Shown: positions 13,372-32,525 of the stretch, piece by piece
Layout: each line of letters starts with the position of its first letter
How positions within the stretch are numbered: position 1 is the first letter of the stretch
Assembly (NCBI RefSeq): GCF_022846615.1
Contig: NZ_AP025637.1
Coordinates: 1,054,001-1,118,000, forward strand
Reading direction: 5' to 3'
Source of the DNA: Roseomonas fluvialis
GTDB taxonomy: Bacteria; Pseudomonadota; Alphaproteobacteria; Acetobacterales; Acetobacteraceae
DNA length: 64,000 nucleotides
Made by a program: the position numbers and the translations under genes
The notes under the pieces: generated by a model
Database searches by the model: none
Seen by the model: the letters and a program-made list of their open reading frames with translations, nothing else
What the model was told of the DNA's origin: nothing

Positions 13372-13496
13372 GAAAGAATCTTGCGGCTGCGTGCTGTTGC
13401 ACGAAAAACACTATGTTTACCGCCGGTTGCGCGGTGAGGCTGCCCGAATTGTTGAGGAAACACGAAGGGTTTTTCGCGACGGCCTCGCGAAGGCGG

Positions 13497-13903
13497 CGCC
13501 AGACGGCCTGTAAGCCGGGTTCTGTCGCACCCGTTGCCGGGCACGGACGGCCATTCCTCTGGAACCCGCATCGCTGCGGGCTTCGCGCGGCCAACCCGGG
13601 CGGAAGGGCGGGACCGCCCCTGCGTCAACGCGTTGCCGCGCTACGCCGTCCGCCCCTATTCGGCCTTGCTCCCGGTGGGGTTTGCCGTGCCGCCGCCGTT
13701 GCCGGAAGCGCGGTGGGCTCTTGCCCCACCGTTTCACCCTTGCCCGGAAGCCTCGCGGCGTCCGGGCGGTCTGTTCTCTGTGGCACTTTCCCTGGGGTCG
13801 CCCCCGCCGGCCATTAGCCGGCACCGTAGTCCCGTGGAGCCCGGACTTTCCTCCAGCCCACGATCGCTCGCGGACCAGCGGCCGCCCGGCCGTCTGACGC
13901 CGC
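13497..13903 (-). ncRNA. rnpB: RNase P RNA (class A)
   Basis: Catalytic RNA of ribonuclease P, which matures tRNA 5' ends. The minus strand shows the universal GAGGAAAGTCCGGGCTCC block near the 5' end (complement at about 13834-13851), the AGGGTGAAACGGTGGGG block in the middle (about 13730), and the 3' GACAGAACCCGGCTTA block (about 13510-13527). The two ends form helix P1: GGCG-TCAGACGGCC near 13903-13888 pairs with GGCCGTCTGGCGCC at the 3' end, 14 bp with one G-U. Ends are set from that helix and are good to a few bases. Confidence 0.95.

Positions 13904-28461: not shown

Positions 28462-28465
<4 letters not shown>
28229..28465 (-). CDS. DUF2798 membrane protein
   Basis: A 78-residue membrane protein with two helices ([22 protein letters not shown] and [19 protein letters not shown]) and a conserved late VRRMVSRIV stretch, the DUF2798 pattern. 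Its start overlaps the class I fumarase stop as ATGA, and its stop overlaps the DUF1272 start. Together with DUF1272 and RidA it is part of a tightly coupled tail of the fumarase operon. Function is unknown. Confidence 0.85.
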
Positions 28466-30123
<1,658 letters not shown>

Positions 30124-30432: not shown

Positions 30433-30951
30433 CTACGTCTTGCGGCGGAAGGCGTCGAGGCTGACGACCTGCGCCGGCGCCGCGGGGACGGGCGGGGCCT
30501 CGGGTTCCGGCGCGGGCGCTTCCTCGTCGGCGGCGTCGTCGACGAAGGCGGGAAGGTCGGCGCCGGTCACCGGGAAGCGCAGGCCGAAGCGCACCTGCGG
30601 GTCGTGGAACATGGTCAGCGCGCCGAAGGGCACCACCAGGCGGGACGGCACGCCGCCGAAGAACAGGGTCACCGCGAAGCGCTGCGCGGCGCGGTCGATC
30701 AGCAGGTCCTCGAACTGGTGTTGCAGGACGATCGTGATCTCCTGCGGATAGCGCGCCTTGAGGTGCCCCGGGACCGTCGTACCCGGATGGTCCGTGCGGA
30801 AGGTCAGGTAGAAATGGTGTTCGCCGGGCAGGCCGTGGGCGGCAGCGTGTTCCAGGGCACGGATCGCCACCTCGCGCAATGCTTCCTCCGCCCAGGAATC
30901 GTAGGGCATCAGGCTTTCTGGCGGGGCTGCATCGTCGCTCATGGCTGCCAT
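30433..30951 (-). CDS. sspB: SspB-family ClpXP adaptor
   Basis: A 172-residue alphaproteobacterial-type SspB, which delivers ssrA-tagged proteins to ClpXP. The conserved folded part runs from MPYDSWAEEALREVAIRALEHA to about residue 130 (FHDPQVRFGLRF). An acidic, proline-rich linker follows, then a short C-terminal peptide ending VVSLDAFRRKT, which resembles the ClpX-binding tail. Start is ATG 30951 or ATG 30942; neither has a good ribosome site. The tmRNA gene that makes the tag lies directly upstream on the same strand. Confidence 0.92.
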   Translation of the reverse strand: MAAMSDDAAPPESLMPYDSWAEEALREVAIRALEHAAAHGLPGEHHFYLTFRTDHPGTTVPGHLKARYPQEITIVLQHQFEDLLIDRAAQRFAVTLFFGGVPSRLVVPFGALTMFHDPQVRFGLRFPVTGADLPAFVDDAADEEAPAPEPEAPPVPAAPAQVVSLDAFRRKT

Positions 30952-30982
30952 CTACGCAGGGATAGGCGGATTGCCAAGGAGA

Positions 30983-31262
30983 AGTGGGGGGCTTCTGTTG
31001 CCCGGTGCCCCCCGGACCGCGCTTACCTATCTCTAGGCAGCGAGCGCCACGGTCTCGCGACCGTTATCGTTGGCACTTGTGATTTGGTCCGATGACGGCG
31101 GTACCATGCCGGGCAAAAGACGGATCTTTACCGTGCGCGTCGAGCCTGTTTCGCCCCCATCGGCCGCTGATAAGGCGGGTGATTGGTGGAGGCGCCGGGT
31201 ACCGCCCCCGGGTCCGCAACACTTATTCCATACGCCGTTTATCGCCATAGTCACCGAGGTGA
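30983..31262 (-). ncRNA. ssrA: Transfer-messenger RNA, circularly permuted two-piece form
   Basis: Rescue RNA for stalled ribosomes. On the minus strand the acceptor piece comes first and ends GCGCCTCCACCA, with CCA at 31186-31184. About 25 nt later the coding piece starts GGGGGCGAAACAGGCTCGA at 31158. GGGGGCG pairs with CGCCUCC to form the acceptor stem. The tag frame at 31074-31033 encodes ANDNGRETVALAA and a TAG stop. It contains a perfect ACGGTC-GCGA-GACCGT hairpin and is followed by an H-type pseudoknot ending near 30986. This permuted order is the alphaproteobacterial two-piece form. Outer ends are approximate. Confidence 0.93.
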
Positions 31263-31309
31263 CACAGCACATATAGCGCGCCGCGCGCGGGATATCGAGG
31301 GGTATCGCG

Positions 31310-32470
31310 TCACCCGCGCGACAGGCCGCGTTCGACCACGCGGGCATAGAGCGCGGCACCATAGGGGATTGCGTCGTCATTGAAGGCGTAACGCGGGTTG
31401 TGGGGCATCGCGCCATCGCCGTTGCCGACATGGATATAGGCGCCCGGGACGCGCTCCATCATGAAGGAGAAGTCCTCGGAGCCCATGCCGGGCGGGTTGT
31501 CGCGGGCCACCTTGTCGGCCCCGACCAGGTCGGCGGCAGCCTCGGCATAGGCTTCGGTCTGCGCGGGGTCGTTGATGGTGGGCGCGAAGATCAGGCGCCA
31601 GTCGGTGGTGGCGGTGGCGCCGAAGCCGGCGGCGACACCCTCGGCCACGCGACGCATCGCGGCCTCGATCTGGGTGCCGACCTCGCGGGTGAAGAAGCGC
31701 GCGGTGCCGGAGATGGTCGCGGTCTCGGGGATGACGTTGTAGGCCTCGCCGCCGATCACCTTGGTCACGCTGACCACCGCAGGGTCGCGCGGGCTGAGCG
31801 TGCGGCTGACGATGGATTGCAGCGCGCTCGTGATGTGGCAGGCGGCCAGCACCGGGTCGATGCTCGCTTCCGGGCGCGCACCGTGCGCGCCCTTGCCGGA
31901 CACCGCGATGTCGAAGAAGGCGCCGCCGGCTGCGGTCGGCCCCGGGCGGATGCCGTACTGGCCGATCGGCATGCCGGGGCGGTTGTGCATGCCGAAGATG
32001 GCATCGCAGGGGAAGCGTTCGAACAGCCCATCCGCCAGCATGGCCAGCGCGCCACCGCAGCCTTCCTCGCCAGGCTGGAAGATGAAGTGGACGATGCCGT
32101 CGAAGTTCTTCGTCTCGGCCAGGTAGCGCGCCGCACCCAGGAGCATGGTCGTGTGCCCGTCATGACCGCAGGCATGCATCACGCCGGGCGTGGTGCTGCG
32201 GAACGGCATGTCAGCGGGTTCCTGGATCGGCAGCGCGTCCATGTCGGCGCGCAGGCCGATGGCACGGTTGCCGGAACCGTTGCGGAGCACGCCCACCACG
32301 CCGGTGCCGCCCACGCCGCGATGCACCTCGATGCCCAGCGATTCCAATTCGCGCGCCACGACCTCGGCCGTCCGGTGCTCCGCCATGCCGAGTTCCGGGT
32401 GCGCATGCAGGTCGCGGCGGATCTCGGCGAGGGCTGCGTGGTGGCGGCGGATGGCGTCGAGGGCGGACAT
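31310..32470 (-). CDS. M20-family amidohydrolase (hippurate hydrolase-like)
   Basis: Zinc-dependent M20D amidohydrolase of 386 residues, in the group that cleaves N-acyl amino acids such as hippurate, N-acetyl amino acids or IAA conjugates. Motifs: RADMDALPIQE, HACGHDGHTTMLLGAA with metal ligands, FQPGEEGCGGA with the catalytic glutamate, and GSEDFSFM near the C-terminus. The start is ATG 32470 (MSALDAIRRHHAAL); a longer frame adds a weak N-terminus. It follows a TauD-like gene and TRAP transporter genes on the same strand. Confidence 0.92.
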   Translation of the reverse strand: MSALDAIRRHHAALAEIRRDLHAHPELGMAEHRTAEVVARELESLGIEVHRGVGGTGVVGVLRNGSGNRAIGLRADMDALPIQEPADMPFRSTTPGVMHACGHDGHTTMLLGAARYLAETKNFDGIVHFIFQPGEEGCGGALAMLADGLFERFPCDAIFGMHNRPGMPIGQYGIRPGPTAAGGAFFDIAVSGKGAHGARPEASIDPVLAACHITSALQSIVSRTLSPRDPAVVSVTKVIGGEAYNVIPETATISGTARFFTREVGTQIEAAMRRVAEGVAAGFGATATTDWRLIFAPTINDPAQTEAYAEAAADLVGADKVARDNPPGMGSEDFSFMMERVPGAYIHVGNGDGAMPHNPRYAFNDDAIPYGAALYARVVERGLSRG

Positions 32471-32525
32471 GGCGGCTCCGGGGCTGGATGCCGCCATGCT
32501 GCACCGGGACGCGCCCGGCGCGAAG

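Follow-up and report, generated by a model that had tools for sequence, protein, structure and literature searches.

The permuted tmRNA gene ssrA and the adaptor gene sspB as an old, widespread but not universal pair in Alphaproteobacteria, probably read through from the ssrA promoter

We find that a 64,000-nucleotide stretch of the Roseomonas fluvialis genome (contig NZ_AP025637.1, positions 1,054,001 to 1,118,000; hereafter the window) carries a permuted tmRNA gene, ssrA, directly followed on the same strand by sspB, and the genome comparisons presented here indicate that this pairing is old and widespread in Alphaproteobacteria but not universal. tmRNA tags unfinished proteins, and SspB delivers the tagged products to the protease ClpXP. 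We consider it probable that the window locus represents the ancestral alphaproteobacterial ssrA-sspB unit, transcribed through from the ssrA promoter, with the sspB message freed by tmRNA processing.

Results

The ssrA-sspB locus of the window

The tmRNA gene is recognized on the minus strand by two Rfam models, RF01849 (alpha_tmRNA; 31302-30983, 246.3 bits against a gathering threshold of 50, model positions 1-355, full length) and RF04321 (tmRNA_permuted; 152.8 bits, gathering threshold 47, model positions 1-213). ARAGORN agrees, calling a permuted tmRNA at 31278-30942 on the minus strand with the tag ANDNGRETVALAA, whose frame ends in -AA followed by a stop codon. The first-pass annotation, made from the sequence alone, had proposed a permuted two-piece tmRNA and suggested an Rfam alpha_tmRNA search as a check, and both the proposal and the check are borne out; the Rfam search returned a single RF01849 match in the whole genome. 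The gene shares with the permuted alphaproteobacterial tmRNAs of RF01849/RF04321 the order of acceptor piece with CCA, loop, tag-coding piece and conserved 3' end, and shows no notable difference from them, the tag sequence being lineage-specific. Keiler et al. are said to have described Caulobacter ssrA as a permuted two-piece tmRNA in 2000. For the tmRNA of Orientia, cleavage into two pieces is described in an excerpt of a further paper (PMC7335160). The arms of the 5' leader hairpin differ between the listed relatives yet remain complementary, as judged by eye, and transcription of ssrA presumably begins at or near the first base of this hairpin.

The protein read from 30951-30433 is SspB (PF04386, 131.8 and 132.1 bits in two scans with a cut-off of 27) and the only PF04386 match in the genome, which confirms the adaptor gene named in the first-pass annotation; NCBIfam models gave no match to it at E 0.001. 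A start at 30942 gives ATGAGCGAC, and because ATGAGCGA- is the N-terminus in several named Acetobacteraceae relatives, this start is likelier than the one at 30951. This leaves 40 nt between the tmRNA 3' end (30983) and sspB, or 31 nt if translation begins at 30951. The earlier placement of the tmRNA about 30 bp upstream of sspB on the same strand thus stands as to strand (both genes are minus) and as to the alternative start, but falls short for the likelier one. Likewise, its span of 30433..31262 encloses two real genes but ends too early, given that ssrA with its promoter extends to about 31299. Same strand, tmRNA first and a short gap together make an operon-type layout (Table 1).

Table 1. 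Features of the ssrA-sspB locus and its immediate neighbors, in window coordinates
Feature	Position	Strand	Basis
M20 amidohydrolase, upstream neighbor, outside the unit	31310..32497	(-)	profile scans
ssrA promoter, -35 element CTCGAT	31294..31299	(-)	matches CTTGAC at 4/6, spacer 17 nt; related boxes (CTCGAT/CTCGCA) in named relatives
ssrA promoter, -10 element CTATAT	31271..31276	(-)	6/6 in the window
5' leader hairpin GTCACC/GGTGAC	31250..31263	(-)	Rfam structure line
tmRNA acceptor piece: T arm and encoded CCA (31186-31184)	31184..31246	(-)	sequence and Rfam
Intervening loop, presumably lost in maturation; boundaries approximate, as inferred	31159..31183	(-)	Rfam alignment; acceptor stem GGGGGCG/CGCCUCC
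tmRNA coding piece, to the conserved 3' end (..GGCAACAGAAGCCCCCCACT)	30983..31158	(-)	Rfam and relatives
Tag reading frame ANDNGRETVALAA-stop	31033..31074	(-)	sequence and ARAGORN
ssrA-sspB gap, 40 nt	30943..30982	(-)	relatives; no terminator-like or E. coli-type promoter match
sspB, with C-terminal VVSLDAFRRK motif	30433..30942 (alternative start 30951)	(-)	Pfam, relatives, PDB matches
Class I fumarate hydratase, downstream neighbor	28462..30120	(-)	profile scans; cluster after sspB in 22/77 loci

Among alphaproteobacterial SspB structures, phmmer matches the window protein to 2QAS (E 1.7e-33, the alignment covering residues 7-152), 2QAZ (named SspB, 1.6e-32) and 2NYS (3.5e-29). The window SspB differs from these known structures in a proline/alanine-rich linker before its C-terminal motif, and the sequence and length of this linker differ among relatives. 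The motif itself, which we take to be the ClpX-docking motif, contains residues that are invariant across 16 aligned sequences (V162, L165, D166, F168 and R169), and a strict pattern for it fits 87 of 117 loci, the misses being partly near variants and partly proteins without the motif. The closest named SspB, from Roseomonas sp. CECT 9278, is 89% identical, and its locus has the same tag and the same arrangement.

The genome contains one smpB gene, whose distance of about 2.2 Mb rules out its linkage to the pair. Elsewhere in the window, at 13495-13897 on the minus strand, lies a class A bacterial RNase P RNA (RF00010, 271 bits) in which a run of 24 nt has no counterpart in the family consensus.

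Conservation of the linkage

In 120 family-level genomes of the window's family, SspB and tmRNA were each found in 115, and 114 carry both. The tmRNA lies upstream on the same strand within 400 nt in 74 of these 114 pairs and at 0.4-5.4 kb in another 22, or 96 within 5.4 kb altogether; these distances are measured from the end of the Rfam match up to where the SspB domain match begins, rather than up to the start codon. The two genes share contig and strand in 97 of the 114 pairs, one of which is 149 kb apart in reversed order, while they are on opposite strands in one and on different contigs in 16.

The pattern extends to the class. Of 241 alphaproteobacterial genomes that are 90% complete or more, 222 have SspB and 230 a tmRNA (227 of them over cut-off), and 217 combine SspB with an over-cut-off tmRNA. 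In 155 of these 217 pairs the tmRNA is upstream on the same strand within 400 nt; five more pairs with this order and strand are separated by 0.4-1 kb and 22 by 1-10 kb, giving 182 within 10 kb. The remainder are on the same strand but far apart or reversed (6/217), on opposite strands (5/217, one of them 7 kb apart) or on different contigs (24/217). When each family is represented by a single genome, 77 of 108 pairs lie within 400 nt. For 80 named SspB loci, ARAGORN gave an upstream tmRNA at no more than 400 nt in 46 and at a greater distance in 8; of the other 26, at least 5 have little upstream sequence, and Rfam, applied to 20 of them, recovered a tmRNA in 4.

The adjacency exceeds chance in the family and class counts. 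The comparison across Acetobacteraceae that the first-pass annotation had called for therefore comes out in its favor, and the family, class and named-locus counts indicate that the linkage is old and widespread but not universal.

We surveyed the neighbors of 77 close loci, namely 76 taken one per family plus the window, all chosen for the closeness of ssrA and sspB. The gene before ssrA is mostly divergent, being ThyX in 32/77 and ThyA in 12/77, and the gene after sspB is a class I fumarase in 22/77 and a class II fumarase in 7/77; these names are our presumed identifications from the cluster sequences, only the class I fumarase of the window having been scanned. Two non-homologous thymidylate synthases thus fill one divergent slot before ssrA, and the ThyA neighbor is often accompanied by a DHFR-like gene (L032-L107).

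A further set comprised 40 loci at which the two genes are separated, 20 from the family and 20 from the class. At least one ORF intervenes in 35/40 and at least one opposite-strand ORF in 24/40, counts that come from a crude caller (longest or most-matched ORF) and certainly include shadow ORFs. Most of these ORFs belong to no shared cluster. Mobile elements were considered as the separator; after clustering of 86 intervening ORFs, no integrase was recognized by eye in the starts of the cluster representatives. The existence of separated pairs means that the linkage is not obligatory, and with other genes lying between the two, sspB must be expressed some other way at those loci. The separated loci retain some of the same flanks, with thyX or thyA before ssrA in 17/40 and a fumarase after sspB in 19/40 by our count.

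Promoters and terminators

The region before ssrA has a conserved arrangement of a CTTGAC-like box, 16-18 nt and CTATAT, with a perfect -10 element in 34 of the 58 loci (among 77) that could be anchored. Without anchoring, the promoter score upstream of ssrA is 8.87 of 12 versus 7.26 in shuffled sequence (n=77), reaching 9 or more in 52/77, and at separated loci it is 9.05 versus 7.24 (n=40). The ssrA-sspB gap scores 7.31 versus 7.07 (n=77, p 0.018), with 9 or more in 12/77. In gaps of at least 65 nt (49/77) the score is 7.78 versus 7.37 (p 0.0017), which resembles the signal before separated sspB genes (7.78 versus 7.36, n=40, p 0.0005), and these longer gaps may therefore hold a weak second promoter. 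At the other extreme, 10/77 gaps measure 36 nt or less even when sspB is taken to begin at the start codon closest to its domain, leaving no room for a separate promoter.

A scan of window positions 30850-31450 gave no terminator match and no E. coli-type promoter match, the latter scan being one that does not accept CTATAT and so missed the ssrA promoter as well. In 13/77 adjacent loci a terminator-like match falls after the tmRNA end but before the SspB domain. Terminator enrichment 3' of ssrA was tried as a test of co-transcription and discriminated neither adjacent, separated nor shuffled sequence: a match occurs within 150 nt in 23/77 adjacent loci (shuffled 18-23/77) and in 13/40 separated loci (shuffled 7-14/40).

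Since the signal in the gap is slight beside that before ssrA, short-gap loci, the window included, probably depend on read-through from the ssrA promoter for sspB. Read-through thus appears to be the likeliest source of the window's sspB mRNA. The shared promoter that the first-pass annotation had raised as a possibility gains indirect support from the conserved ssrA promoter, the slight gap signal, the lack of a terminator match in the scanned part of the window and the ten gaps that are too short.

Tag sequence and the presence of SspB

ANDN codons, which open the tag, are found in the tmRNA gene of 107/117 SspB-bearing loci versus 3/42 SspB-less genomes. Two orders have SspB in none of the sampled genomes (0/6 and 0/58) and carry tmRNA in 6/6 and 57/58, with tags such as AKSDYAEYALAA, ANDDYAELALAA, ANESYALAA, ANDELALAA, ANNKLALAA and similar. 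The 42 SspB-less genomes that were read are distinct. The larger order, with 57 tmRNA-positive genomes, contributes 30 whose loci were retrieved and one more that comes from the class sample; of the 19 SspB-less genomes in that class sample, 10 were retrieved, which leaves aside three with sub-threshold tmRNA only (G165, G186, G348) and six with no tmRNA match. ANDN occurs without SspB in G143 (ANDNELALAA), G275 (ANDNVRLAMAA) and G288 (ANDNYEGEVALAA), and for G275 and G288 a relative in the same family carries SspB. All SspB-less tags read by ARAGORN end in -AA, as do two that ARAGORN missed and that were translated separately.

At the family level, ARAGORN tags contain ANDN in 66/73 SspB-bearing versus 1/5 SspB-less families (Fisher p 0.001, with f25, which has one ANDN tag and one without, counted as ANDN, and G275 and G288 left out). 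This co-variation is suggestive only: the SspB-less clades are few and represent few independent events. The SspB-less genomes come mostly from two orders, so that lineage and genome reduction confound the association, and of the 10 SspB-bearing loci lacking ANDN, 9 belong to genomes smaller than 2 Mb, which would allow genome reduction to account for both losses.

Several tmRNA genes showed unusual features. Doubled ANDN tags are present in two SspB-bearing genomes, G235 (L134) and G318 (L143), and the SspB-less G233 (L151) has a tag resembling a decayed ANDN doublet. Genomes G384, G394, G401, G411, G414 and G415 of the larger SspB-less order carry short sub-threshold tmRNA fragments at about 0.7-3.2 kb from the complete gene, which might be remnants of integration at ssrA. 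Unusually long tmRNA matches in G262 (C27, 907 nt), G342 (C22, 778 nt), G192 (C59, 634 nt) and G177 (C36, 563 nt), where others mostly span about 290-480 nt, possibly reflect large inserts inside the permuted gene.

Discussion

From the sequence evidence, we infer that ssrA and sspB would be co-transcribed and co-regulated. RNA polymerase would start at the conserved sigma-70-type promoter just 5' of ssrA and produce the permuted tmRNA precursor; with no recognizable terminator in the window, it would continue into sspB. tRNA-type processing would then excise the two tmRNA pieces, and the sspB message would be what remains after the cut at the tmRNA 3' end. By the function established for these families, tmRNA with SmpB would append ANDNGRETVALAA to stalled nascent chains, SspB would grip the start of the tag, dock on ClpX through its C-terminal motif and hand the chain to ClpXP, and ClpXP would take the -LAA end.

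Alternatively, the neighborhood could be an old block kept by inertia, with sspB transcribed from a promoter of its own that overlaps the tmRNA 3' end and with no regulatory meaning in the adjacency. The flanking thymidylate synthase and fumarase genes are partly kept too, at close and separated loci alike, sspB survives separation from ssrA, and longer gaps show a weak promoter signal. Against this, ssrA-sspB is the most persistent link observed, though the 77 loci were chosen for it, the gap signal is small compared with that before ssrA, and some gaps are too short to fit -35 and -10 boxes outside the tmRNA gene, and we regard inertia as an unlikely explanation overall. One long operon in which the promoter of the M20 amidohydrolase gene upstream drives most transcription of the window pair seems far less credible still: the M20 gene is on the same strand, its stop codon lies about 10 nt short of the ssrA -35 box, and no terminator match separates it from ssrA, but the ssrA promoter motif is kept where the upstream gene is divergent and where the upstream sequence differs (L197, L209, L210 and L196, in which the sequence 5' of the promoter is unlike the M20 flank of the window).

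The preferred reading, an ancestral unit read through from the ssrA promoter, can be extended, more tentatively and with somewhat less than even confidence, to a unit in which release of the sspB message by tmRNA processing ties the supply of the tag reader to tagging capacity. In this extended reading SspB would also keep the ANDN start under selection; in lineages that lose sspB the tag start would drift away from ANDN, whereas the -AA end read by ClpX would stay.

The ssrA and sspB components of the unit are textbook. In E. coli, SspB likewise delivers ssrA-tagged proteins to ClpXP; there, however, sspB follows sspA in an operon, whereas in the window it follows ssrA itself. Among the matches listed in our literature search, no paper treats class-wide ssrA-sspB adjacency or co-variation between tag and SspB, although earlier notice is possible.

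The conserved unit illustrates well, and in simple form, a link between making a tag and reading it, and the tag co-variation deserves a proper test. The SspB-less orders are natural tests of which tag residues serve the adaptor alone. If ssrA and sspB form one transcript, more tmRNA would bring with it more adaptor to clear the tagged products, and tagging and disposal would be kept in step.
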